A DNA stretch of 61,185 nt, taken from NCBI GenBank assembly GCA_016872645.1, contig VGZH01000027.1, positions 1 through 61,185 of the forward strand. The letters are read 5' to 3'. Below, in pieces: positions 781 through 56,980 of this stretch (within the stretch, counting starts at the first letter, position 1; each line of letters starts with the position of its first letter). A program made the translations under genes and the position numbers. Under the pieces are notes generated by a model, which was given only the letters and a program-made list of their open reading frames with translations, ran no database searches and was not told where the DNA came from. This DNA comes from Planctomycetota bacterium. Lineage in GTDB: Bacteria; Planctomycetota; Planctomycetia; Planctomycetales; Planctomycetaceae.

Positions 781-2259
781 ATGTCAAAGACGCGCTATCC
801 GTCCCTGTATCAGATCAACACCCGAGTGTGGCTGACCGACCTGTCGCATTCGCGCGACCGCCGAGCGACGTTGGATGATATTTCGGATGCCGCATTAGAT
901 GATTTCGCGCGGCAAGGCTTCGACTGGATTTGGCTGCTGAGCGTCTGGCAGGCCGGTCCGGCTGCGCAGGGAATCTCGCGTGCGAATCCTGATTGGCGGC
1001 GCGAGTTCGAAGAGACGCTTTCGGACCTCTCCGACGACGACATCGGCGGTTCGGGTTTCGCCATTCAGAGCTACACGGTCCATCGCGATCTGGGAGGTGC
1101 TCCGGCGCTTGCGCGGTTGCGACAACGAATGCAGCAGCGCGGGCTGAAGCTGATGCTCGACTTCGTTCCGAACCACATGGCACCGGATCATCCGTGGGTC
1201 AACGAGCATCCGGACTACTTCGTGTCTGGCAGCGAAGTGGATTTGGCTCGTGCACCTCAGAACTTTTACCGACTGCCAACACAGAACGGATCAATGTTGC
1301 TGGCGCACGGCCGCGACCCGTACTTTGACGGCTGGCCTGACACAATTCAGCTCAACTACGGCAACCCTGATTTGCAAGAGGCGATGATCGGTGAGCTGAA
1401 ACGCATCGCCGGGCAATGCGACGGCGTCCGTTGCGACATGGCGATGCTCGTCTTGCCCAGCGTGTTCGAGCGGACATGGGGAATCCGAGCGGAACCCTTC
1501 TGGCCTAAGGCAACCGAGTCCGTGCGGCACGAGCATCCGCAATTCCTGTTCATGGCCGAGGTCTATTGGGATCTCGAGTGGGAGTTGCAGCATCAGGGCT
1601 TCGACTTTTGCTACGACAAGCGACTGTACGATCGGTTGCGTGAGCAGCACGCACGCCCAGTCCGCGAGCATTTCTGGGCCGGACTGGATTACCAGGACAA
1701 GCTGGCTCGCTTCCTGGAGAATCATGACGAACCGCGAGCAGCCGCTACGTTCTCGCGAGCCGTTCACGAAGCGGCCGCAGTCATCACGTTTCTGTCGCCC
1801 GGCCTGCGGTTCTTCCATCAGGGTCAGTTCGAGGGCCGACGAAAACGCATCTCGCCGCATCTGGTTCGCGCACCCGCGGAAGCCGAGGACGAACACTTGC
1901 AACTGTTTTATCAACGCATGCTGGCCGTACTGCGAAAGGACTCTGTTCGCAATGGATCCTGGCGACCGCTCGAACGCGTTCCGGCCTGGGACGGCAACAC
2001 CTCCTGCGACAACTTCGTCATCTGCGAATGGCACGGTGCCGGTGGCGAACGATTGCTCGTCGCCGTGAACTACGCGCCGAGCCAGAGTCAGTGCTTTGTC
2101 CGCTGGCCCGAGGCCGACGTTGGTCATGGAATTTGGCGCCTGCACGACTGCCTGAGCGACGCAGTTTACGATCGGGACGGAGCAGATTTGGTCGCGCGAG
2201 GGCTGTTCTTGGATCTGCCGGCGTGGGGCTATCACGTCTTTGACCTGAAACTGCCGTGA
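781..2259 (+). CDS. Alpha-amylase family (GH13-like) glycoside hydrolase
   Basis: This 492-residue protein has the signature of the GH13 alpha-amylase superfamily. It begins with a (beta/alpha)8 barrel (SLYQINTRVWL) and has LMLDFVPNHMAPDHPW as region I. The catalytic aspartate is in GVRCDMAM (D219), the acid/base glutamate in FMAEVYWD (E260) and the second aspartate in ENHDEPR (D316), so all three catalytic carboxylates are present. A C-terminal beta-sandwich domain follows (GERLLVAVNYAP). The start at 781 was chosen because residues before it do not resemble the family; an in-frame ATG at 679 would add 34 unlikely residues. No signal peptide is seen, so a cytoplasmic role in alpha-glucan or trehalose-type sugar metabolism is inferred. 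The exact specificity cannot be told. Confidence 0.9.
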   Translation: MSKTRYPSLYQINTRVWLTDLSHSRDRRATLDDISDAALDDFARQGFDWIWLLSVWQAGPAAQGISRANPDWRREFEETLSDLSDDDIGGSGFAIQSYTVHRDLGGAPALARLRQRMQQRGLKLMLDFVPNHMAPDHPWVNEHPDYFVSGSEVDLARAPQNFYRLPTQNGSMLLAHGRDPYFDGWPDTIQLNYGNPDLQEAMIGELKRIAGQCDGVRCDMAMLVLPSVFERTWGIRAEPFWPKATESVRHEHPQFLFMAEVYWDLEWELQHQGFDFCYDKRLYDRLREQHARPVREHFWAGLDYQDKLARFLENHDEPRAAATFSRAVHEAAAVITFLSPGLRFFHQGQFEGRRKRISPHLVRAPAEAEDEHLQLFYQRMLAVLRKDSVRNGSWRPLERVPAWDGNTSCDNFVICEWHGAGGERLLVAVNYAPSQSQCFVRWPEADVGHGIWRLHDCLSDAVYDRDGADLVARGLFLDLPAWGYHVFDLKLP

Positions 2260-2369
2260 CTCGTGGCTCTCGTGAACTCGTACTTCGCTTGTTGCGGCTC
2301 AGTCCAGCCGACAGCGTTGGACACAAGCCGCACGAGCCACTCCAAATCGACCACAAATTACCTTCCGCG

Positions 2370-3010
2370 CTGACTTGAGTTCTGTCGACGACTGTGCAGG
2401 ATTGTTGAGGGACTCCTGTGGATTGCGGTTGCGTTTCGTCGATCACAGCCGCACTGTCGAAGCAACTCAATCGCAAAAAGCTCTACAGCTTCTCGGTCGA
2501 GTTCACGATTCCGGAATTCGATGAGAACGCCTTCCAGCAAGAGGTCGTGCGACGACTAGGAACCGAGCATCACACGGGGCGTTGTTCGCACCACGACATC
2601 GGCCGAATCTTCTCGTAAGTTATCCGACACACCGAGACTCCGATCCTGCGAACGGCTCCGGCTCAGATGTTTCTGTCATCACAACTGGCGTGGGAGTCAG
2701 GTATCAAGATCGTGCTGACCGGTGAACGGGCGGACGAGGTATTTGGCGGCTACGGCATCTTCAAAGAGGCGACTCTGAGGCGGTTCTGGTCACGACGGCC
2801 GGATTGGTTGCGTATGGCCGATGTTACTCCAGCGGCTGTACCCGTACATGAAAAACATTCAATCGCAGCCCACCGCAGAGCTGCCAGCGTTCTTTGGAGT
2901 GAACCCGCAGACGGTCGGCCATCCATTCTTCTCGCATCTGCTACGGTTTGAGTTGACCAGAAAATTGAAAAAGTTTTTTCACGCCAGAGGTGCTGGTCTC
3001 TCGACAACGG
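2370..3010 (+). pseudogene. Decayed asparagine synthetase (AsnB-like, exopolysaccharide type)
   Basis: Recognisable asparagine-synthase pieces occur in order but in broken frames. LLRDSCGLRLR (near 2398) runs into a deletion that removes the SGGxDS ATP-pyrophosphatase loop. AALSKQLNRKKLYSFSVEF, FDENAFQQEVVRRLGTEHH and DIGRIF then lead to an in-frame TAA at 2616-2618. The same frame continues with VIRHTETPILRTAPAQMFL and VLTGERADEVFGGY, where the family has GEGADE. A frameshift near 2815 moves homology to another frame with LLQRLYPYMKNIQSQPTA and HPFFSHL. The glutaminase domain is missing. Loss of the ATP loop, a nonsense codon and a frameshift make this a pseudogene. Similar synthetases occur in exosortase-associated exopolysaccharide clusters. 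Confidence 0.75.
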
Positions 3011-3175
3011 TATCGAGGGGCGTTGGGCGTCTAGAGGGTGCTCAGGGCCGGGGCGGTGTTCGTCATGGCGAACCCGACTACGAAGCCAGACAAACGAACT
3101 TATCGGCTCAACAACTCGCGAGCGTCGTGCCTCATCGCGCAGAGCAAGTGGCTGAGAGGTTACGAAGCGATGTAG

Positions 3176-3376
3176 GCGGAGATTCCACATCTGCGAAACG
3201 TCATTGCCGTTGGCGTGATCGACGAGGTCACCGGCTTCGGAATCGTACCGACGGTCATGGCGATCCTGCTGCAAACGGATTTGACAAAATACGAACTGTC
3301 ACAGTTGCGTTACTTCAGCAATACCGGAGCCGCATTCCCGATCGAATCCGTTCTGAAACTGCGAAAAGCGATTTGA
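3176..3376 (+). pseudogene. Remnant of an AMP-binding acyl-CoA ligase
   Basis: A 66-codon fragment reads EVTGFGIVPTVMAILLQTDL and then LSQLRYFSNTGAAFPIE, the stretch of acyl-adenylate-forming ligases that precedes the MYGLTE motif. The match is to the ligase type found in exosortase/PEP-CTERM exopolysaccharide clusters (family knowledge, not searched). An in-frame TAG stands at 3173-3175 and a TGA at 3374-3376. The N-terminal ATP-binding motif and the C-terminal domain are absent. It follows the asparagine synthetase remnant and precedes two further remnants on the same strand, so it is read as part of one decayed cluster. Confidence 0.6.
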
Positions 3377-3416
3377 TCAGCTCTCGAACAGTGCGGCGAA
3401 TCGACTCCGGGTGCTT

Positions 3417-3695
3417 GGCGAGCGAACGGCAGACAATCTGACATGGTGGTTCTCGTAGTACCCGGACCTCAAACACGAAATCTTCGCACTCGGTCGGAAC
3501 GGGTGCTGTTGGGGTACGCGGTGTCGTATCGCGCCGCGAATTCCGTTCACATCACCAACATGCTTGCCCAGCCAGCCTTCAACGAATTACTGCTGTCAAA
3601 GTTCACAAGGCTATCCCGTCAATTGCAGGCGGATGCGATTCGAATGTCGTGCTTTGGGCCGCGAGAATTTCCAAGCGTGAACTGCGGGCTCGCAC
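3417..3695 (+). pseudogene. Probable remnant of a GNAT-like acetyltransferase
   Basis: One frame reads ERTADNLTWWFS, a stop (TAG, 3456-3458), then YPDLKHEIFALGRNG. After a frameshift near 3500 the neighbouring frame reads VLLGYAVSYRA, VHITNMLAQPAFNELLL and ADAIRMSCFGPREF. The order (ADxLxWxF, then a YPxxxxEIFAL strand, then LLGYAV and a C-terminal helix) resembles GNAT-type proteins from polysaccharide gene clusters. The resemblance is from memory and moderate. The stop and shift show that the gene, whatever it was, is broken. Confidence 0.35.
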
Positions 3696-6101: not shown

Positions 6102-9945
<3,844 letters not shown>

Positions 9946-9953
<8 letters not shown>

Positions 9954-12900
9954 GCGGTTGTGGGAGTCGTTGCGGACTCGTGGTTTCGCTCGTGTGCGGA
10001 TCAACGGCAAGACTTTCCGGCTGGAGGACGTGCCAAAGATTGATCGCAAGAGCAAGCATCTCATCGAAGTGGTCGTGGATCGGGTCACGGCCAGTCATTC
10101 GCGCAGCCGCCTGGCGAGTTCCGTGGAGCAGGCCTTCGATCTCGGCCGTGGATTCATCCGAGTCGCGCACGTCGACGAGAATGTTTCGGAAGTACACTGG
10201 CGAGTCGACAACTACTCGCTGCACTTTGCCTGTCAGCAGTGTGGTCGTGGTTTTGAACAACTGACGCCGCACAACTTCAGTTTCAACAGCCCGCTCGGTT
10301 GGTGCCCAAGTTGCGAGGGACTCGGAGTCCAACAAGGGACTGACCTCGCCTCGCTCATCAACGAGCCGAAAAAGTCGCTGGCCGACGGCGCGGTCACCGC
10401 TTGGCCGGAGGTTGCAAGCAGCCCGCTGTTCCGAGCCATGCTGACGGCACTGGCGCAGCAATTTGGAATCCCGCTGGATGTGCCCTTCGAGCGGCTCGAC
10501 CCGCGTCATAAGCGGCTAGTGCTGCACGGGACGGGAGAGCGGTGGGTGGAGATGACGGGATTGCAAACTCCCAATTTCAGCTTCCAGTACAAGGGGCTTT
10601 ATCCGGCGATCGAAGAGGCCGGTCGCGCGTCGCACTCTTACCGGCATCGGCTGTTCGGCATGACGGGGGAAGTGGCGTGCTCGGTGTGTGACGGGAGCCG
10701 GCTGCGTGATGATTCGGCGAACGTGCGGCTGCGCGGGTTCACGTTGCCGCAGCTTTGCGAATTGCCGCTCGATGAGGCGTTGAAATTTTTGAAGACGCTC
10801 CAGCTGACCGGCAGCGACAAGAAAATCGCCGGGGACTTGCTGACCGAGGCGACACATCGATTATCGTTCTTGGTCGATGTTGGCTTGAATTATCTGAGTC
10901 TCGCCCGAACGTTGCCGACGCTCTCCGGCGGCGAGTGCCAGCGCATCCGGCTGGCGGGGCAGATCGGCCGAGCCTTGACCGGCGTGATGTATGTCCTCGA
11001 CGAACCGACGATTGGGCTGCATCCACGCGACAATGGACGCTTGCTGACGGCCCTGAAGAAACTGCGAGACCTTGGCAACACGCTGATCTTGGTCGAGCAC
11101 GATCGTGAAGTGCTCGGCGCGGCGGATCGCCTGTACGACTTCGGACCGGGAGCGGGCCGGCTCGGCGGCACCGTGACGGCCGAGGGATCACCGAAGCAGC
11201 TCGGCCGCGAGGAGAATTCGCTGACCGGGCAGTTCTTGTCGGGACGGAGGGAGATTCCGATTCCGATGACACGGCGGATGCAGCGTGATGGAGGAAGAAA
11301 GAGTCAGAGAAAAGAAGAGCAATCGCGGATACGCAAACGCTCCAAGTCAGCATCACCCTCGGACTCTCACGCTCTCACACCTTCACACACCAAAGGCTGG
11401 CTTGAAGTCGTCGGCGCGCGGCATCGCAACTTGCGAAACGTGCATCTGCGTATCCCGCTCGGCACGCTGACGGTTGTCACCGGCGTCAGCGGATCGGGGA
11501 AGAGTTCGTTGATTCAAGAGACGCTCGCAAAGGCGGTCGCGCGGAAGCTGCATCGGTTGAACGAGACACCTGGCCCGCACGATGAACTGCGCGGGTTGCA
11601 GCACATCGACAAGTTGATCCTGGTCGATCAGCAACCGATCGGGAACACGCCGAAGTCGAACCCCGGCACGTTCACCGGCGTATTTGACGAGATTCGTGAG
11701 CTGTTCGCACAGTTGCCCGAATCAAAAGTGCGCGGCTGGCGAGCGGGCCGCTTCAGCTTCAATCGCGCCGGCGGACGCTGCGAACTCTGCGAAGGAAACG
11801 GACAGAAGCTGATCGAGATGCACTTCCTGCCCGACGTCTGGATCGAATGCGATCAGTGTCGTGGCAAGCGGTACAACGCCGAGACTCTGACGGCGAGGTA
11901 TCGAGGTCAGTCGATCGCCGACGTGCTCGAGATGCCAATTGGTCAGGCACTCGAACTGTTCGAGAACATCCCGCGCATTCGCGGGCCGCTGGCAACGCTG
12001 TGTGCGGTCGGACTGGATTACCTGACGCTCGGCCAATCCGCACCGACGTTGTCGGGCGGCGAGGCACAGCGAGTGAAGCTGGCGGCGGAACTCGCTCGGC
12101 CGCAGACCGGCAAAACGTTGTACATCCTCGATGAGCCGACCACCGGTCTGCACTTCGACGACATCGACAAACTGCTGAAAGTGCTCAACAGCCTGGTTGA
12201 GAAGGGGAACACCGTCGTCGTTATCGAACACAATCTCGACGTCATCAAGACGGCCGACTGGCTGATCGACCTTGGCCCGGAAGCGGGAGACGGTGGCGGT
12301 TGGATCATCGCGGAGGGAACACCGGAAGATGTGGTTGCGCAATTCTCGGGACAAAGATCGACCGCCGATGGCCGAGAGACGTTGTCCCAAAATTCGCACA
12401 CAGCCGCGGCACTCGCCCCGATCCTCGCCACGGGTACACGTGGTGAGCGAGCCGTCTTCGATGCCGATGGCGTGCGCAAGAAAAGAGCGGGAGACGTCAC
12501 GCTCGCAGAACTCGGCCGGGACGCGAAGATGCCCTGGCAAGTCAACGGCCGCAAATGGCATCTCGTGGAGCGTGTCGCGCTCAACAATAAGCCTTGCCGT
12601 TGGGAAAGTGCCGCCCTGGAACGAGTCATTGAATTCTTGGAGTCTGTTCCAGAAGCGACGCCCGCACGCAAGGTTGCAACGGCACCCGACTCGAAGCTCG
12701 CATTTCTGCCGAGCAAACTGCGAGGAAAGGTTACGACTGGCGCGGCTTTGAAACTGCAACAGGACGATCGAGGCCCGGCAGCGTTGCTCGATCCGAATGC
12801 GCGGCTGTCGACGATTTGGGAGGAACGCAGCGTCGTTGAGGTTGTCGGCCCGGATGCTTCGCGCGGGTGGTTTTTGCACGCCATGACCGGTGACGAATGG

Positions 12901-13179
12901 CTGCTGACATTGAAATTCCGTGTGCCGGAGAACACGTTTCAACAGAAGTCGTTGGTTGCGGCATTGCAGCTCAAACCGGTCGACGACATTCGCGAGATTG
13001 AAGCCTACGGCCGAGCCGATCGTGTTCGTGTCAAAGATGCTAGCGGTTCTTGGCAAGAGGTGACGATCACCGTGCATCGGCTGCGTGAGATCGACTCGCC
13101 GGCATTTTGGAAGTTCTTGGATGATGCCAAGCGAGCATTTTTGGTGAAAGCGGCGCGTAAGCGAAAGCTGCCTCGTTGA
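9946..13179 (+). CDS. uvrA: Double-length UvrA, C-terminal part (after the frameshift)
   Basis: This frame carries the rest of half 3, half 4 and a C-terminal extension. UvrA homology starts exactly at the second copy of the 55-bp unit (KHERLWESL). The frame stays open back to 9802 but that stretch is not UvrA-like. Half 3 ends with [14 protein letters not shown] and [14 protein letters not shown]. Half 4 has [13 protein letters not shown], the zinc motif [14 protein letters not shown]...CDQC and [12 protein letters not shown] with [10 protein letters not shown]. All Walker and signature motifs of both halves are intact. After about base 12340 come roughly 280 residues not found in standard UvrA ([45 protein letters not shown]), a separate domain of unknown role. 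Joined to the upstream part it gives about 2340 residues against about 950 for ordinary UvrA. Confidence 0.92.
11270..11392. repeat. Degenerate repeat-derived linker between uvrA halves 3 and 4 (element 6)
   Basis: A very basic, serine-rich linker ([19 protein letters not shown], later [12 protein letters not shown]) sits before [14 protein letters not shown] of half 4. AGCGTGA on the left and TCACGCT on the right pair weakly. The composition and the TPSH ending match the linkers of elements 3 and 4, so a decayed copy of the same element type is inferred. Confidence 0.4.
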
Positions 13180-48978: not shown

Positions 48979-50400
48979 TTACATATTTGACACCACGCAA
49001 CGCACCGCCAACGCGAGCCGCGAATCGTCTTCCGGCAGCACACTTCGCAAATCGAGCAACACGTAATCCTGCTGAATTCGCCCAAACACGCGGATCGAAC
49101 CCAACCGCAGTCGACGCGAGAGTTCGTCGGCTGACATCGACCGCGATCGTATTTGCAGCACAACAGTTGGCAGATCGACACCTGGCAACGAACCACCACC
49201 CACGGTCGCCGTTTCATTCGCGATTTCGACTTCGCAACCTGGCAATTCGCCGATCTCGACTGCGAGTTGCCGAGCACGCATTCGCAACGAATCGACCGAC
49301 GCCGACAACATCGCCAACGTCGGAATCTCGGCGACAGCGGTTCCTCGTAGATAGGCATCGAACGTGGCTTGCAACGCAGCCAGCGTCAGCTTGCCGACTC
49401 GAACGGCGCGCGCGAGAGGATGCTGACGGATTCGCTCCACCAACTTGTGCTTTCCGAGAATGATCCCGCATTGCGGCCCACCCAGCAGCTTGTCGCCGCT
49501 TCCGAGCACGACATCCGCTCCGGCCGAGAGGCTTTGCTGAAATGTCGGTTCGGCAGGGAGTCCGAATTCCGCGACATCGATTAAGGCGCCGCTGCCGATG
49601 TCGTCAATCGCGGTCACGCCATGTTTCCGCGCAATTGGCACGATATCTTCGATCGGCGGCGTCTCGCTGAACCCGATCACACGGTAGTTCGACGGATGTA
49701 CGTGCATGATCGCCGCCGTGCTGGCGGTGATCGCTGCTTGATAGTCGACAACATGTGTGCGATTCGTCGTCCCGATTTCTCGCAGCACCGCGCCACTGAG
49801 CGAGAAGATGTCCGGCAATCGAAACGAACCACCGATCTCGATCAACTGTCCGCGCGAGATGACCACTTCTCGTCCGGCACAGAGCGCTTGCAGTGTCAAC
49901 AAAGTCGCCGCCGCGTTGTTGTTGACGATCAGCACATCTTCGCAACCGGTCAGCGCGCGGAATGTCGCTTCCAACTGATGCCCCCGATAACGCCGCTCGG
50001 CCGTTTCGAGATCGACTTCGACGTTGCAGTGACCGCCGAGTTCGCTCAGCGCCTGCCGCGCGGCGCCCGATAACGGTGCGCGACCCAATCCAGTGTGCAG
50101 CACAACGCCAGTCGCGTTGATGACTCGGCTGAGTTGTTGTTGGCTCGCGTTCCGAGCTTGTCGTTGCACTTGCTCTGCCAGCAACTCTGTCCAAGCAGTC
50201 CGGTCGAGCGATACTGATTGAGATCGATCGTGGATGCACTCGCCGTTCGACGAATTGATCCGCCGTCGTGCCTGACCGAGAACTTGGCGCACCCATCCAA
50301 GCACCACGTCGCGACCGTGCTCCGCGATGAGCGGTTCAACGGCCAGATGACTCAATAGGTCTTGAACGGGTGGCAGGCGAGACAAAGTGTCGGACGACAT
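48979..50400 (-). CDS. selA: L-seryl-tRNA(Sec) selenium transferase
   Basis: The protein has 473 residues. SRVINATGVVLHTGLGRAPL, VEVDLETAERRYRGHQLEAT and NNNAAATLLTLQALCAGREV are SelA blocks. The PLP-binding lysine lies in LGSGDKLLGGPQCG (K304), and RPDIFSLSGAVLREIGTTNR-type sequence is present at about 195-214. It converts Ser-tRNA(Sec) to selenocysteinyl-tRNA(Sec) using selenophosphate. SelB, SelD and tRNA-Sec are not in the window. The start at 50400 has AGAGGGG just upstream; in-frame ATGs at 50436 and 50511 would add residues not seen in the family. It is divergent from mraZ. Confidence 0.95.
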   Translation of the reverse strand: MSSDTLSRLPPVQDLLSHLAVEPLIAEHGRDVVLGWVRQVLGQARRRINSSNGECIHDRSQSVSLDRTAWTELLAEQVQRQARNASQQQLSRVINATGVVLHTGLGRAPLSGAARQALSELGGHCNVEVDLETAERRYRGHQLEATFRALTGCEDVLIVNNNAAATLLTLQALCAGREVVISRGQLIEIGGSFRLPDIFSLSGAVLREIGTTNRTHVVDYQAAITASTAAIMHVHPSNYRVIGFSETPPIEDIVPIARKHGVTAIDDIGSGALIDVAEFGLPAEPTFQQSLSAGADVVLGSGDKLLGGPQCGIILGKHKLVERIRQHPLARAVRVGKLTLAALQATFDAYLRGTAVAEIPTLAMLSASVDSLRMRARQLAVEIGELPGCEVEIANETATVGGGSLPGVDLPTVVLQIRSRSMSADELSRRLRLGSIRVFGRIQQDYVLLDLRSVLPEDDSRLALAVRCVVSNM

Positions 50401-50651
50401 TCGGACCCCTCTGACAATTGGAAAACGCTCGCTCATTGTCCGAGGATTTAGATTGCTCGCCAGTGACTGGGCTCCGGGTAAGAAATCGCCCCAAGACCGG
50501 TCCAGGTGCAATCGCGCGAATTTTTCCGATTGGGGAGGTTTTTTGTTTGCGGAAGACTGGCGAGGCCGGTATTGTCTCCGCCCTGCAGGGTGGAAAACTC
50601 GCCCAAATGATCTTTGAAAATTGATTGAATGTGGGTTTTAAGCCCAATAGC

Positions 50652-51425: not shown

Positions 51426-52247
51426 TCATACAAAGAAGTCAGGCAGCAATTCCGCTGTCGGATCGACCGCGTAGCTCGACAGGTCGCTGATGCCGCAATC
51501 GCGCAGCACATCCTCGTCGAGAAAGAAATTGCCCGTGCATTCGCGACAGGGGTGCGTGAGGATCGCGTAAGCCGCATCGGCAACAATCTCTGGCTGGCGA
51601 CACCGGCGCGCGGCCTCATCACCACCCAACAGGTTTCGAACGGCAGCGGTGGCGATGGCAGTCCGCGGCCACAACGCATTGACTGCGATGCCAGATCGAC
51701 GAAATTCTTCAGCCATGCCAAGCACACACAAGCTCATGCCGAACTTCGACAAACTGTAGGCTAAATGCGGGGCAAACCAGCGAGCCTCGAGATTCAGTGG
51801 TGGAGCAAGGTTGAGAATATGCGGGTTTGTGGCTTTCGAGAGATGCGGCAGACATGCCTGTGATGTCAGAAAAGTCCCACGGACGTTGATGGCGTGAATG
51901 AGATCAAATCGCTTCGCGGGAGTGTCGAGAGTCCTTGCCAGAAACAGCGCGCTGGCGTTGTTGACCAGAATGTCGATGCCGCCAAACGTCTCGACGGTCC
52001 GTTGCACGGCCGACCGAATCTGCTCTTCAAATCGCACGTCGCAGACGCAGGCCAATCCACGTCCGCCAGCCAGATTGACTTGTTCGACGGCTGTGTGAAT
52101 CGTTCCCGGCAAGCGAGGATCTGGCTCGACTGTCTTTGCCGCGACGACGACGTTCGCTCCGTCGCGAGCGGCCCGAAGCGCGATCGCCAAGCCAATTCCG
52201 CGACTGGCTCCCGTGATGAACAGCGTCTTGCCGGCCAAGGTGGGCAT
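51426..52247 (-). CDS. Short-chain dehydrogenase/reductase (HSDL2-like)
   Basis: The protein has 273 residues. LFITGASRGIGLAIALRAA is the NAD(P)-binding GxxxGIG motif, DILVNNASAL the NNAG equivalent, and YSLSK (in HLAYSLSKFGMSLC) the catalytic Tyr/Lys pair. The serine usually found about 13 residues earlier is replaced by a LAPPLNL stretch, so the catalytic Ser is not obvious. The sequence (PDPRLPGTIHTAVEQV, CRECTGNFFLDEDVLRDCGI) matches the hydroxysteroid-dehydrogenase-like-2 group. AGGAAAG precedes the ATG at 52247. The substrate is unknown. Confidence 0.9.
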   Translation of the reverse strand: MPTLAGKTLFITGASRGIGLAIALRAARDGANVVVAAKTVEPDPRLPGTIHTAVEQVNLAGGRGLACVCDVRFEEQIRSAVQRTVETFGGIDILVNNASALFLARTLDTPAKRFDLIHAINVRGTFLTSQACLPHLSKATNPHILNLAPPLNLEARWFAPHLAYSLSKFGMSLCVLGMAEEFRRSGIAVNALWPRTAIATAAVRNLLGGDEAARRCRQPEIVADAAYAILTHPCRECTGNFFLDEDVLRDCGISDLSSYAVDPTAELLPDFFV

Positions 52248-52291
52248 CGACGTGCTCTTTCCTCGCCTGAGAATCACTGACCGCCAGCGGA

Positions 52292-53878
52292 CTAATCGCC
52301 GGACTTCAACGCCTGCTTCTTGTTGTCCAGCTGGTACAGCGGCAAATAGCGGTAGTAGACCTCAAGAGTCAGTGCATGGATGCTGGTCGACATGACCGGT
52401 CCGGCGGAGTGCCCAGTCGGAGCCCAACTGCCAGCAGCGCATCCTTCTTTGATCTGAGTCGAAATCAGGTGTCGACGGGCATTTCGATTCCATGTGTCCC
52501 ACTCCGGTCCTGGTAAGTTGTGCATTACCTGCGTGGCGTAATAGAGAAAATACGAGTCCGATTTCGCGCCAGCCAGATTCGCCATGACGTAGTTCATGCC
52601 TTCGACCATCGCGGGGTCGTTGCGCTCCATCCCGGAATACTGGTTACAAAGCAGACCGACGGCGGACATCGCCGGGGTCGGCCCGCTTCCCGGCATATAC
52701 GAGAAAAGCCCACCGTTTTTCCCTTTGGCAACGCTGGCCAAAAAACTCTTGGACTTGATGAGCGTCTGCGGGTTTACCGGAAGGCCAGCCATTTGAGCAC
52801 TTTTCAACCCCATCAATTGCCAGCCGACCACTGATGTATCACCAACGGTGGGTGGATTGGCCGAGTAGTGCCAGCCGCCCGATTCGTCATTTTGTGCGTC
52901 CTCAATGAATCGGACGGCCGCCTGCGCCAAGTTCTTCAGTTTTGGATCTTTGCTGAGGCCGTACGCTTCGCAAATTGCGATGGTCGCCAATCCATGTTCG
53001 TACATGCTGCCGCTGCCCAATCGACCGTTCTTATCTTGATGCGATGCCATCCAAAGCAGGCCTTTGCGAATGACCGCTTGGTACGGACCTCTGGTTTCGT
53101 GCGTCTGACCGGCGGCAAAGAACGGCAGCAGGCCGAACGCTGTGGCGGCCATCGGATGATCAGCGGACTTGTGTGCGTGCACCGAGCACGTGGGATCCTT
53201 GCACTGCTTCGTAAATGACGCGCACCCCCAGCCTCCATCGGCTGCTTGATGTCGAGCCAACCAATTGGTTGCCGCGGCGACTGCCCGTTCCGAATCCGCC
53301 GTGCCACCACCGCTCGCCAGCATCGCTTGTCGAGATCCTGAGCCACGGCCACCAAAGCCCTCACCGGCACCGCCACTACCACCCTTGTCGCTGTTGCCGA
53401 CTCCGGTTCCGACGCCACCGGGGCCGCGCACGGCAGGTCCAGCGCCAAACGCCGAGACATCAAAACCACCCAAGCCACCGAATGAGGGGCCGGACGCCGC
53501 AGTGCCACCACCCGCTTCTTCAAAGACCGCCGAGTTGTCATTGAATTGTGCGTCTTGTTCGATCGTCGCGGCGGGTGGTTCGGTCAGCGATTCGGTGTTG
53601 AGCACCGTTGGCTCAATCGGTGTTTCGCCGACATCGAAGTGCGTGATCGGCGTTTCTTCGACAGCTTGGTCCACTTCAGTGTCGAAAAACACGACCTCTT
53701 GCAAAAGCTTCTTGGCATGAGGAGCACCGATCGCCACACCCAGGATCACGAAAATCAGCAAGTGCATGAAGACGCTGATCCCCCAAAACTTGGCATTGGC
53801 TTGGAACCAGTTTCTGACGTTGGTTTTGAGTTCTTCTGACGTCGGAATCGCGGATTTCAAAACTTCCAGAATCTGCAT
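52292..53878 (-). CDS. TonB-like membrane anchor fused to a squalene-cyclase/prenyltransferase-like repeat domain
   Basis: The protein has 528 residues. A 30-residue cytoplasmic start is followed by one membrane helix (FWGISVFMHLLIFVILGVAI, 31-50). That helix has Ser35 and His39 in the S-x3-H spacing of the essential TonB helix (SVCIH in E. coli). Then come an acidic linker with several Pro residues, a long glycine-rich linker (about 125-200), and alpha-alpha repeats of the terpene-cyclase/prenyltransferase fold: AATNWLARHQAADGGWG, RKGLLWMASHQDKNGRLG, AVRFIEDAQNDESGGWHY. The lysosomal-type DxDD catalytic motif of cyclases is not seen. It is the last gene of the ExbB-ExbD-ExbD operon. GAGGTG precedes the ATG at 53878. 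Confidence 0.8.
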   Translation of the reverse strand: MQILEVLKSAIPTSEELKTNVRNWFQANAKFWGISVFMHLLIFVILGVAIGAPHAKKLLQEVVFFDTEVDQAVEETPITHFDVGETPIEPTVLNTESLTEPPAATIEQDAQFNDNSAVFEEAGGGTAASGPSFGGLGGFDVSAFGAGPAVRGPGGVGTGVGNSDKGGSGGAGEGFGGRGSGSRQAMLASGGGTADSERAVAAATNWLARHQAADGGWGCASFTKQCKDPTCSVHAHKSADHPMAATAFGLLPFFAAGQTHETRGPYQAVIRKGLLWMASHQDKNGRLGSGSMYEHGLATIAICEAYGLSKDPKLKNLAQAAVRFIEDAQNDESGGWHYSANPPTVGDTSVVGWQLMGLKSAQMAGLPVNPQTLIKSKSFLASVAKGKNGGLFSYMPGSGPTPAMSAVGLLCNQYSGMERNDPAMVEGMNYVMANLAGAKSDSYFLYYATQVMHNLPGPEWDTWNRNARRHLISTQIKEGCAAGSWAPTGHSAGPVMSTSIHALTLEVYYRYLPLYQLDNKKQALKSGD

Positions 53879-53983
53879 GACGCACCTCAAAAATGGAATT
53901 CCCGTCGGGCGGAATTGTTACTCGCAGCAATTGATCATAAGTCTTGTGGCCATAAAACCCAACTGCAGAGAAGTTGGAACATC

Positions 53984-55057
53984 TTACGTATGGCGGTCAT
54001 TCGGAACATCCCCGAATGGCGAATTTGCTGGTTGCTTGGGAAATGTTGCCAGCCGGGGTTCAGACTCTGAATTCGCGGTTTCGTCCCATTCCGCGAGTGC
54101 CTCTGCGGTGGTCGAAGTTGAACCTTCCGGTTCCGGGGCTCCGTTTTCCAGCCAACGTTCGATCGCGGCGTGATCGGGTGGTGCCATTGCATCCAGGTTT
54201 TGGTTGCCAGAAGGTCGAGTCCGTTTCCAGGCGACTCCGAGCACGACGACCGCTCCAGCCACGATCAGCCATTGCCAAAGATAGCCATCATTTCGTTGCC
54301 GGCGCAATGCCGACCTCGTCACGTTTTCTCGCCAGTGCAATCGGCCGATCAGCAGCGGAGCCCAACGATTCTTGCCCATCGCGTCTTCGTAGGTGAACTG
54401 CTTCAAAAAGTATCCCACGAAAGTAGCTTCTTCGTGGATGCTGGGCTGAATCGCCAGTTCGGGGGGCTTGTCGTAAAAGACCAAGCAATACAACCCGGAG
54501 CGGGATTCGTTGGTGACACCCCATGCCTCATAAACTTGCTTGGCTCCCGCTGAGTTTTCTTCGGCTTCGTGAGCGAGCGCTCGTCGCAGGCTGACTTTCA
54601 GGCCGATCAACTCACCCCGGTACTTCTCAGGCGCTTCGGCCAAATGCGTGAAATAAATGTCTTTGCGAGACCGCTCCCACAAATCATCGAACGATTCCGT
54701 CATGCTCCAACGCATGAGTTTCCAGTAGGCCGGCATCTCCTCTCGTGCGAGAGGTTCTTTGTCGGTGACCGCCTGAAAGAGGTATTCGGCCTGCGAATGC
54801 TCGAGTGGCTGCTGATCATTCGGGCCGCTCACAAGAGTTTCAGCGAGATTCCCATCTGGAGATACGGTGTCCCCGTTGGGCTTCGCGGTTACGGCGGCGT
54901 TTTCTTGGACATCGTCCGCGAGCCATTTCCACATCGCCGGATCGCGTGACCAGAAAATGAGCATCGTGACGACGCCCAACAGCATCACGGTTCTCACCAA
55001 CCGGGACATTTCGCGGCGAGGAAATGAAGTCGATGATCGTGAAGAACGAATGGACAT
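53984..55057 (-). CDS. Two-pass membrane protein of unknown function in the Exb operon
   Basis: The protein has 357 residues. One hydrophobic helix lies near the N terminus (LVRTVMLLGVVTMLIFWS, about 20-37) and another near 270-285 (WLIVAGAVVVLGVAWKR). The loop between them, about 230 residues, would be periplasmic (PAYWKLMRWSMTESFDDLWE, IGLKVSLRRALAHEAEENSA, PSIHEEATFVGYFLKQF). The C-terminal tail is acidic and likely cytoplasmic. No family is recognised. It lies between exbD and the TonB-like gene, with 5 bases to the former. Confidence 0.8.
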   Translation of the reverse strand: MSIRSSRSSTSFPRREMSRLVRTVMLLGVVTMLIFWSRDPAMWKWLADDVQENAAVTAKPNGDTVSPDGNLAETLVSGPNDQQPLEHSQAEYLFQAVTDKEPLAREEMPAYWKLMRWSMTESFDDLWERSRKDIYFTHLAEAPEKYRGELIGLKVSLRRALAHEAEENSAGAKQVYEAWGVTNESRSGLYCLVFYDKPPELAIQPSIHEEATFVGYFLKQFTYEDAMGKNRWAPLLIGRLHWRENVTRSALRRQRNDGYLWQWLIVAGAVVVLGVAWKRTRPSGNQNLDAMAPPDHAAIERWLENGAPEPEGSTSTTAEALAEWDETANSESEPRLATFPKQPANSPFGDVPNDRHT

Positions 55058-55062
55058 GATGG

Positions 55063-55575
55063 CTACGGCTGCGTGTCCGCGGGAAGCTCGACGAAACTGA
55101 GTTTGGTCAGCTTTTCGCCGTTGGGCAATGTCTGTTTCGTGCAGACATCGACGATCTTCATCAGCTCCTCGTAGCGTAGTTTGGAACCGATTTGAACGAT
55201 GACCTGATCGAAAGGGCTGTTCGCATCGCTGAGCACAGCCTTCAATCGGCCATCTAGAGCGGAGACACCCGCGACATTCCCTTCGCCAATGGCGAGAGTT
55301 TGAATTCGGCCACCGGGGGTCGAAAAGGCGGAAATGACCAGCGTGTTGATCGCCTCGACCGCGCTTTTGTTCTTGTCATCATCTCCGGCCTGCTCTCCAC
55401 CCTTCACTCCGGCGACCGGTTTCGGGGGCGGCAGCTTCAGGTTGATCTGCCCTTCGATCGGAGCTGGCTTGAACGTCATGATGAAGAACGCCAGCAATTG
55501 GAACGCCATGTCCAGCATGGCAGCCAGATTCAGCTCGACGCCACTGTCATTGTGTTTCTTTTTTCGACGACTCAC
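55063..55575 (-). CDS. exbD: ExbD/TolR-family protein (first downstream copy)
   Basis: The protein has 170 residues, with a GTG start. A short basic N terminus (MSRRKKKHND) precedes the single membrane helix with the conserved aspartate (LAAMLDMAFQLLAFFIM). The periplasmic part contains VIVQIGSKLRYEELMKIVDV, the ExbD C-terminal helix-strand. It should couple proton flow to a TonB-like partner together with ExbB. A Lys/Asp-rich insert (GEQAGDDDKNKSAVEA) lies after the membrane segment. Confidence 0.9.
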   Translation of the reverse strand: MSRRKKKHNDSGVELNLAAMLDMAFQLLAFFIMTFKPAPIEGQINLKLPPPKPVAGVKGGEQAGDDDKNKSAVEAINTLVISAFSTPGGRIQTLAIGEGNVAGVSALDGRLKAVLSDANSPFDQVIVQIGSKLRYEELMKIVDVCTKQTLPNGEKLTKLSFVELPADTQP

Positions 55576-55599
55576 ACCACACCTGCCCTGTCACTCGGC

Positions 55600-56052
55600 T
55601 TACGAACCGGCTCTGTCGGTTGCCTTGAGTGCAAACTTCCGAAAGCCATTTTCCTGACATGTCTTGATGACGAGATTGAGCAAACCAAACGGAGTGTCCT
55701 TATCAGCCCGCACCACGACCGTTGTGGGAAGATCATCCGTGTCTTTGAATCTTGGATTCTTTTCCTTGGCCTCGCGGCGCGCCATTTTCGCTTCGGCCTT
55801 GAGGTACGGGACGATGTCTTGTGGCAACGAATAGACTATCAATTGCCCGTCTTTGTTCACGTTGAGGACCAGCAAGCTTTCCTCGCCCTGCGTTTCGACA
55901 GGGCGTGCTGAACCGACCACTGGCAGCCGCAGCGACAAATCCAACGAGGCGGCTTTGAAGCTGGTCACCAGCATGAAAAACGTGATCAACTGAAACACCA
56001 TGTCGAGCATGGGTGTCAGATCAGCTTCGCCTTCACTTTTTGAGCCGGACAT
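55600..56052 (-). CDS. exbD: ExbD/TolR-family protein (second copy)
   Basis: The protein has 150 residues. The membrane helix again has the essential Asp (LTPMLDMVFQLITFFMLV). The periplasmic domain has LLVLNVNKDGQLIVYS and TTVVVRADKDTPFGLLNLVI, the classical ExbD pattern. It lies 40 bases downstream of the exbB gene. Two ExbD paralogues in one operon suggest a heteromeric stator, as in some other bacteria. Confidence 0.92.
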   Translation of the reverse strand: MSGSKSEGEADLTPMLDMVFQLITFFMLVTSFKAASLDLSLRLPVVGSARPVETQGEESLLVLNVNKDGQLIVYSLPQDIVPYLKAEAKMARREAKEKNPRFKDTDDLPTTVVVRADKDTPFGLLNLVIKTCQENGFRKFALKATDRAGS

Positions 56053-56092
56053 GGGTGCTCAGACATAAGAGGTCAGAAGTCAGAGGTCAGAC

Positions 56093-56980
56093 TTACGCTG
56101 GCTTGGGAGCCGGGGATGGCGCCGGAGCGGCTGCGGGCGCTGGAGCTTTCGCTGCGGCCTTGGCGGCACTCGCCAACTTCCGAACGAATTCATCCGCGGC
56201 ATACATGGTCGTCGAGCTGATTTGTGCCACTCGGTTTTTGAAGATGGCAAAGAAGAATATCGCCGGAACCGAGAGAGCGACTCCCATGAACGTGACGACG
56301 AGAGCTTCGGAAATCGCTTCGGCCACCTCGTTGGCTTTGATACCCGCGTCGGATCGGGCGATGACCATGAAGCTGGCAATCATCCCCTTCAGCGTGCCGA
56401 GCAAACCGATCATCGGTCCCAGCGATCCGAGAACGGCCAACATGCTGATCTTTTTCTCCATCTCGACGACTTGCACCTCAGCCGTTCGCTCCATCGCATC
56501 GCGAGCTTCCGCCAATCCGGCCGACAATTCACCCAGCCCCGACGAAGCATATCGGCTGAACAGGCAATCCTTTTCCTTGATGCCCTGGTAAACACCCTTG
56601 TAGTCCTTCTTTTCCATCTTCTGTTTGAGGTCATCCATCAATTCAGGGGGCATGGCCACGATAGGCCGGATGTCGATGAACAATCGGCTGACCAATTGAA
56701 TGAAGTAACACGACAGCCCGATGATAAAAATGCCGATGAGTCCCGAAATTCGGAGAACCCAAATGACAACATTCTCTTCGGAACGTCCTTCGGCCGCCGG
56801 CTCCTTAGCCTCTTTCTTCGCTTTTTTTGGAGCGGGCTCTTCGGCCGCCTCTTCAGCGGCCTCTTCCTGAGCCAAGGCTGCGGGAGGGGACAGCCACAGC
56901 GTCTCCAGCGAGCCGACAGACAAAACACACAACAACACCATCCAAGCCAGCCACTTTGAGCGGTCAGGTGAGCCAATCAT
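56093..56980 (-). CDS. exbB: ExbB/TolQ/MotA-family proton channel protein
   Basis: The protein has 295 residues. It has a cleavable-looking signal sequence (AWMVLLCVLSVGSLETLWL) then an Ala/Glu/Lys-rich stretch and a first membrane helix (ISGLIGIFIIGLSCYFIQLV). The conserved MotA/TolQ/ExbB block AVLGSLGPMIGLLGTLKGMI and the third helix (ISEALVVTFMGVALSVPAIF) are present. The extra N-terminal periplasmic part is common in planctomycete ExbB proteins. GAGG lies 8 bases before the ATG. It heads the operon that continues with two exbD genes, a membrane protein and a TonB-like protein. Confidence 0.93.
   Translation of the reverse strand: MIGSPDRSKWLAWMVLLCVLSVGSLETLWLSPPAALAQEEAAEEAAEEPAPKKAKKEAKEPAAEGRSEENVVIWVLRISGLIGIFIIGLSCYFIQLVSRLFIDIRPIVAMPPELMDDLKQKMEKKDYKGVYQGIKEKDCLFSRYASSGLGELSAGLAEARDAMERTAEVQVVEMEKKISMLAVLGSLGPMIGLLGTLKGMIASFMVIARSDAGIKANEVAEAISEALVVTFMGVALSVPAIFFFAIFKNRVAQISSTTMYAADEFVRKLASAAKAAAKAPAPAAAPAPSPAPKPA

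Follow-up and report, generated by a model that had tools for sequence, protein, structure and literature searches.

Five minus-strand genes in a 61,185-nucleotide stretch of planctomycete DNA (the window; Planctomycetota bacterium, family Planctomycetaceae, assembly GCA_016872645.1, contig VGZH01000027.1) form an operon at positions 56980-52292 that reads, 5' to 3', exbB, exbD, exbD, a gene for a two-pass membrane protein and a gene for a 528-residue protein that ends in a terpene-cyclase-like toroid (Table 1). The last of these belongs to a large family, carried by planctomycetes, in which a TonB-type membrane anchor is joined to such a toroid. We infer that the operon probably specifies an envelope transducer driven by the proton-motive force, which has the general plan of TonB-ExbBD but another domain at its tip. 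The five genes had been called in a preliminary description made from the letters of the window, and all five open reading frames (ORFs) were recovered, with intergenic gaps of 40, 24, 5 and 105 bases computed from their coordinates.

In the proposed mechanism, ExbB and a pair of non-identical ExbD subunits would form the proton motor, and the 528-residue protein would dock on ExbB through a helix containing Ser35 and His39, which by analogy with TonB would lie N-in/C-out. A disordered linker, acidic and proline-containing and then glycine-rich, would in that orientation reach into the periplasm, the toroid may bind an envelope partner where TonB uses its beta C-terminal domain, and force would pass from the motor to the toroid. 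The two-pass protein would be a conserved accessory subunit, probably touching the motor.

A TonB-type helix, a linker and a toroid

The preliminary description had pointed to a serine and a histidine in the S-x3-H spacing of the TonB helix, and S35-VFM-H39 does lie in the N-terminal helix of the window protein. Across an alignment of 42 proteins with 32-85% identity to the window protein, chosen by length and by the presence of a helix and not by motif, these two positions were the most conserved columns of the helix (Ser in 39/42, His in 36/42), followed by W32 (34/42); the exceptions at position 39 were four Asn, one Leu and one Phe. We then read 133 toroid ORFs, taken from the window, from 16 stretches of its own genome and from 100 stretches belonging to other genomes, the last being a non-random set hand-picked from about 150 toroid matches listed (60 genomes represented by their best listed match, and 40 other stretches). 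A simple hydropathy script was used to predict helices, so that signal peptides are among the "helices" counted. A helix preceded the toroid in 127 of the ORFs and contained S-x3-H in 97 of the 127, the other Ser-to-His spacings from 0 to 8 being found in 0-14 each, and among 577 other ORFs with a helix in the same DNA, 13 had S-x3-H. A chance motif was rejected by these spacing and background controls. A second set comprised 80 named loci, ranking best among at least 587, with 85 toroid ORFs. A helix was predicted in 76 of these and held S-x3-H in 64; the remaining helix-bearing toroids had another small residue at the Ser position (3) or neither pattern (9), and six of the nine ORFs without a helix ran off a contig end.

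The genome of the window contains ten regions similar to the 528-residue protein. Four of the ten toroid ORFs read there have the motif in the last helix before the linker, as SVFMH (window), SLLLH (contig C133), SLLIH (C31) and SVGLH (C14). Among the six without it, five show one hydrophobic stretch ahead of the toroid and the sixth shows no such stretch. Secreted toroid enzymes were rejected as the whole story; motif-less toroids exist as separate paralogues.

Passages of PMC12215075 describe contacts of TonB Ser16 and His20 with transmembrane helix 1 (TM1) of ExbB in cryo-EM structures, and give the Ser-His pair as the most conserved part of the so-called SHLS motif. According to the same passages, the motif Ser and His touch TM1 of ExbB or TolQ in both TonB and TolA, the His being essential.

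The alpha-alpha repeats of squalene-cyclase type that had been proposed for the last protein were borne out by an AlphaFold2 model, computed from the window protein aligned with 41 relatives, which is an (alpha/alpha)6 toroid. The predicted local distance difference test (pLDDT) score is at least 90 at 260 residues, mostly within the toroid, and below 50 across residues 63-181, indicating disorder; a long N-terminal helix was modelled over residues 14-67. The linker has the composition first described, acidic with prolines and then glycine-rich, with 27 Gly, 11 Glu, 7 Asp and 8 Pro among the 123 residues from 63 to 185. The C-terminal domain of TonB is indeed missing, PF03544 matching 0/42 family members at E 0.001 and the window protein not even at E 1, and no VWA family was listed by Pfam for the 42 members.

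By Z score the best structural match in VIA-align was squalene-hopene cyclase (2sqc_A; Z 27.1, root mean square deviation 2.7, 281 residues aligned), and the first Foldseek match by E-value was AprG. Foldseek and VIA-align place the same fold in epimerases, GH76 mannanases, terpene cyclases and the TE domain of complement C5; the toroid fold therefore tells nothing specific about function. PF13243 matches 42/42 family members (E 0.001). Like squalene-hopene cyclase, the window protein has the fold, Q-x-G-W repeats and a Pfam SQHop_cyclase_C match; unlike it, the protein has a helix and a linker ahead of the toroid and is linked to exbB/exbD, and DxDD, the catalytic motif of squalene-hopene cyclase, is not conserved. 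Could the toroid be a terpenoid, glycan or pectate-lyase-like enzyme, anchored to a motor that positions it or feeds it substrate? The squalene-hopene cyclase, epimerase and mannanase folds are among its nearest, Pec_lyase matches 20/42 members, and polar toroid residues are conserved (H295 and E304 in 41/42, D347 and Y443/Y446/Y447 in 42/42). We nevertheless consider such an enzyme improbable, as only 21 of the 212 toroids contain a DxDD string and the scores of curated cyclase models on the window protein fall far short of the cut-offs (TIGR01787, 40.1 against 322.7 bits; TIGR01507, 26.7 against 431.1).

Motor subunits and their linkage to toroid genes

Counted from the printed alignment, T196, E225 and T230 of the window ExbB align with T148, E176 and T181 of the solved E. 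coli ExbB. The pore threonines T196 and T230 are each Thr in 47 of 48 aligned ExbBs, taken from near toroids or from the window's own genome, and the TM1 serine appears by eye to be mostly kept among them. In ExbD subunit 1, D17 aligns with D25 of the solved ExbD, and this pore Asp column is invariant in the 14 ExbDs aligned, subunit 2 included. The two ExbDs of the operon are divergent (18% identity), and a sequence search with subunit 2 gave no PDB match.

Homologues of the two-pass protein, itself a conserved member of the module, were found in 10 of the 80 named loci, in all ten adjoining the toroid gene, and the two-pass alignment matches 100/100 genomes of the window's family; among more distant forms, the window protein pairs with that of L161 at E 4e-6 and with that of L105 at E 0.02. 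The model (mean pLDDT 61.5) gave weak OB/SSB fold matches, so that an OB-like beta domain is predicted between the two helices. Pfam gave one sub-threshold match each for the window and L101 proteins and none for those of L161 and L035.

It had been suggested that a genome survey would tell whether the fusion always co-occurs with exbB/exbD, and as a general rule this was rejected: 36 S-x3-H toroids were linked (within 5 kb), 80 were not and 44 could not be judged. Toroid matches shorter than 250 residues were left out of the linkage counts and the tree, and loci L041-L069 were left out as duplicates of L070 onward; the two locus sets may share species, although the 212 toroid sequences are all distinct (199 clusters at 90% identity). 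Gene labels came from a greedy ORF caller, so that some ORFs are spurious or over-long and real genes are possibly hidden, as with a downstream dehydrogenase gene in L171 that was missed and then recovered by tblastn.

Linkage was still far above the expectation from gene density, ExbD lying within 16 of the 100 toroid stretches (3.5 to 19.7 kb) against 1.5 expected. One of the 16, L117, is counted for an ExbD-like tail on the toroid ORF itself, leaving 15 with a separate exbD gene. In L117 a signal-peptide toroid ORF (1545-3509, minus strand) has a tail, at about residues 534-645, that resembles the periplasmic domain of ExbD (ExbD profile E 6e-15; hhalign probability 82 over 50 columns) and in which Pfam called no ExbD; judged by these profile matches, it is a possible toroid-ExbD fusion.

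The exact order exbB-exbD-exbD-two-pass-toroid recurs in eight of the 80 named loci (L171, L172, L174, L176, L177, L187, L188 and L189), with L170 as a ninth locus of this type cut by a contig end and L181 rearranged. In distant families these components are arranged differently and accompanied by TPR genes, as toroid-TPR-TPR-exbB-exbD-exbD (L090, L101 and L105, followed by the two-pass gene in L101 and L105, and with one of the two TPR proteins below Pfam cut-offs) and TPR-toroid-exbB-exbD-exbD (L161). The order TPR-exbB-exbD-toroid was seen in L073 and L131. The order exbB-exbD-toroid, in which additional helices precede the one with S-x3-H, was read directly in L025, L073, L076, L078 and L131 and was deduced from distances and ExbB coordinates elsewhere (L183, L193, L201, L204, L205, L208, L210 and others); loci of this order include two titled Sumerlaeota/Sumerlaeia and two titled Kiritimatiellia. 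On a tree of the 212 toroid sequences, linkage changed 14 times, against a mean of 43.9 in 200 shuffles. Motor linkage follows descent, yet it arises in several separate places of the tree.

In L172 (7746-11006), tandem toroids (ALGMH and SVGMH) stand behind a single exbB-exbD-exbD-two-pass set. In the window's own genome a second exbB-exbD-exbD-two-pass set (L035, contig C13, 5511-8472) has no toroid gene and adjoins a further exbB/exbD pair on the opposite strand (9255-10612); orphan toroids elsewhere in this genome could serve that motor set.

Distribution, the TonB background and the weight of the evidence

Toroid matches at 1e-20, a level that is no proof of S-x3-H, were found in 87 of the 98 genomes sampled from the phylum and in 100/100 of the window's family. 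ExbD was present in all 98 phylum genomes, TonB_C in 74 and the TonB-receptor domain Plug in 77. By raw counts, the 20 genomes with neither TonB_C nor Plug all have toroid matches, and each of the 11 genomes without a toroid match has TonB_C or Plug, a presence-absence contrast that is suggestive. In the window's family TonB_C matched 19 genomes and had no match in 81 of 100, and Plug matched 0/6 of the family's genomes in the phylum sample. The genome of the window itself gave 14 ExbD and 11 MotA_ExbB matches and no match to TonB_C, Plug, TonB_dep_Rec or TolB_N, the last being the only Tol-Pal model sought.

These counts agree with passages of Speth et al. (2012; PMC3422733), in which TonB and TonB-dependent receptors were reported from only four of the planctomycete genomes searched, the TonB bridge across the periplasm was absent from most of them, and Gemmata obscuriglobus, Planctomyces limnophilus and Singulisphaera acidiphila are named among those without TonB. 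Singulisphaera acidiphila DSM 18658 has an S-x3-H toroid (L228, SILLH). Many planctomycetes have no TonB match, and the toroid family may therefore be their means of delivering energy across the envelope. The record titles of the named relatives are nearly all of Planctomycetota groups; four loci (L170, L178, L217 and L218) are titled Candidatus Kuenenia stuttgartiensis, and these bin labels may be wrong, the toroid of L170 having 84% identity to that of the window and those of L217 and L218 only 39%.

The likeness to TonB-ExbB-ExbD extends to the proton-path residues of ExbB and ExbD, a single S-x3-H helix, an acidic, proline-containing disordered linker, a globular C-terminal domain and a transducer gene that often lies apart from the motor genes. 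The differences are the toroid in place of PF03544, two unlike exbD genes, the additional two-pass and TPR partners and the lack of any TonB-receptor match in the window's genome. Tol-Pal (TolQ-TolR-TolA) has a homologous motor and an S-x3-H helix in TolA; here the C-terminal domain is a toroid and TolB_N found no match in the window's genome. The nearest published relatives in architecture are the vWA force transducers, described in section 8 of PMC12204202 (Williams-Jones et al. 2025) as an SHLS helix, a disordered linker and a foreign globular domain, with loci in the Planctomycetes-Verrucomicrobia-Chlamydiae group that, in the passages concerned, often combine a TPR gene, a tolQ-like gene and two unlike tolR-like genes (TPR-tolQ-tolR-tolR-vWA). 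The toroid family follows this architecture, and some of its loci have similar TPR, motor and paired exbD/tolR neighbours, but it has a toroid where they have a vWA effector, and adds a conserved two-pass OB-like subunit. The toroid protein is neither a TonB, having no TonB C-terminal domain and no receptor match, nor a vWA transducer. The suggestion of a possible undescribed envelope machine stands in part: we found no description of a toroid-TonB or toroid-ExbBD protein among top-ranked titles of the open-access PMC literature, and the main text of PMC12204202 has no word starting with squalene, terpen, toroid or cyclase, but the sister vWA class is already in print in the sections of that paper cited here.

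Several observations weigh against energy coupling through the toroid protein. The unlinked S-x3-H toroids outnumber the linked ones, as counted above. Among linked toroids, that of L177 has lost the motif, those of L187-L189 have S-x3-N, the toroid of L101, the second of L076 and the first of L233 show neither S-x3-H nor S-x3-N, seven have Ala, Gly or Thr instead of Ser, and those of L213 and L246 lack a predicted helix altogether. The full SHLS motif is absent from the window protein, which has Leu46 at H+7 but Ile50 at H+11; Leu at H+7 is found in 29/42 family members, and the last Ser of the motif, at H+11, is Ser in only 5/97 (passages of PMC12215075 likewise give the Leu and Ser as less conserved in Ton). 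On the motor side, the E225 position is Glu in only 21/48 aligned ExbBs, and Trp38 in TM1 of E. coli ExbB, which contacts TonB, has by eye no Trp counterpart here. Finally, the charge N-terminal of the helix was uninformative on topology (median net charge 0 in 161 proteins).

Some of these points would be expected if the protein were an ordinary membrane-anchored scaffold or binding protein whose S-x3-H helix packs on another partner and whose exbB/exbD neighbours are there for regulation: most judgeable family members stand apart from motor genes, some linked toroids have no His, and motif-less toroids occur in the same genome, at six of the ten read, and elsewhere. We hold this to be unlikely, since the exact TonB spacing and the helix position are kept over 32-85% identity, motor linkage recurs at separate places of the tree, and there are genomes with ExbD but without a TonB_C or Plug match. 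According to section 11 of PMC12204202, in the part relevant here, tonB likewise rarely adjoins the genes of its motor; unlinked toroids therefore leave room for coupling in trans, while the argument from linkage is still limited. The idea first put forward, that ExbB/ExbD energy is passed to the toroid, is thus favoured by the conserved S-x3-H, the motor residues, the linkage that recurs in unrelated families and in loci with titles of other phyla, and the lack of canonical Ton matches in the window's genome, and is weakened by the mostly unlinked toroids and the loss of His in some.

Neighbouring genes and possible roles

The features of the operon are collected in Table 1. The Pfam matches of ExbB, both ExbDs and the toroid gene all exceed curated cut-offs. 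The toroid gene begins at an ATG; an upstream TTG would give 532 residues.

Table 1. Operon features in window coordinates
Feature	Positions	Strand	Basis
ExbB/TolQ-like proton-motor subunit, 295 aa	56093..56980	-	Pfam MotA_ExbB E 1.3e-24
ExbD/TolR-like subunit 1, 150 aa	55600..56052	-	Pfam ExbD (PF02472) E 1e-21
ExbD/TolR-like subunit 2, 170 aa	55063..55575	-	Pfam ExbD (PF02472) E 2.3e-11
Two-pass membrane protein (357 aa) whose two helices flank a predicted OB-like beta domain	53984..55057	-	Homologues, alignment, model
Putative TonB-like toroid transducer, 528 aa, stop codon inside range	52292..53878	-	Pfam SQHop_cyclase_C E 2.9e-8, model
Predicted membrane helix of the putative transducer, about residues 30-52, with Ser35 and His39	53723..53791	-	Column conservation
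Predicted disordered linker of the putative transducer, residues 63-181, acidic/Pro then Gly-rich	53336..53692	-	pLDDT <50, composition
Predicted (alpha/alpha)6 toroid of squalene-cyclase-like fold, about residues 189-515	52334..53314	-	pLDDT, VIA-align

A short-chain dehydrogenase gene (window 51426-52277, minus strand) lies 14 bases downstream of the toroid gene. Its homologue, at 84-87% identity by tblastn, closely follows the toroid gene in L170, L171 and L177, and none was found by tblastn at E 1e-5 in L172, L174, L176 or L187-L189. A gene for SelA (selenocysteine synthase) is also near the operon (window 48979-50511, minus strand), no tRNA-Sec was found within the window, and an ORF with a start similar, by eye, to that of SelA occurs near the operon of L177. 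Further away are two neighbouring UvrA-like genes (window 6102-13179, plus strand).

Around toroid genes more generally, 18 of the 21 neighbour clusters listed are other than toroid, ExbB and ExbD. The largest of the neighbour clusters, with a sigma-54 response regulator as its example, comprises 33 ORFs spread over 22 loci, and most of these ORFs have the opposite orientation. A gene for a SurA-like peptidyl-prolyl isomerase stands directly upstream of the toroid gene in four loci (L088, L096, L099 and L102; one example annotated), and Mfd-type genes cluster in nine toroid loci and RNase III-type genes in seven, these loci being partly shared. The SurA-like, mfd and RNase III neighbourhoods are hints of work on outer-membrane proteins. 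In L142 (3698-8972) a penicillin-binding transpeptidase gene is followed by exbD and then an S-x3-H toroid gene, and a separate exbB-exbD-exbD set precedes them.

The same motor coupling might serve a Tol-Pal-like job, in tethering or division, and not uptake. Such a job, which is compatible with a proton-driven transducer, fits the lack of a TolB_N match in the window's genome, the penicillin-binding-protein gene beside exbD and toroid in L142, and the statement in a part of PMC12204202 that domain III sets function in TonB/TolA chimeras. Against it, in a partial look, with one example annotated from each of 10 of the 18 neighbour clusters, no division gene was seen. We regard it as a possibility worth keeping, although not the expected outcome.

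For the transducer that we favour, the best reading is that the toroid tip is a new effector domain, motor-driven effectors other than that of TonB being already known from the vWA transducers of 2025. Passages of Boedeker et al. (2017; PMC5394234) report that carbonyl cyanide m-chlorophenyl hydrazone (CCCP) blocks the uptake of green fluorescent protein and dextran by planctomycetes, through a system given there as still uncharacterised, and we can only speculate that a proton-driven envelope transducer explains this CCCP-sensitive uptake. The fullest version of the idea is doubtful at present; in it, the many Planctomycetota lacking TonB would depend chiefly on toroid transducers for a proton-driven connection to the outer membrane, and these transducers would power the CCCP-sensitive entry of whole proteins and dextran into the periplasm, the toroid gripping a new class of outer-membrane partner. 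Planctopirus limnophila DSM 3776 can be manipulated with genetic tools (PMC5394234). If true, a phylum-wide ExbBD-linked transducer would explain why several copies of exbD are kept without TonB, would offer single genes for deletion in a tractable planctomycete, and would widen the idea of ExbBD-type motors driving effector domains beyond those of TonB and TolA.

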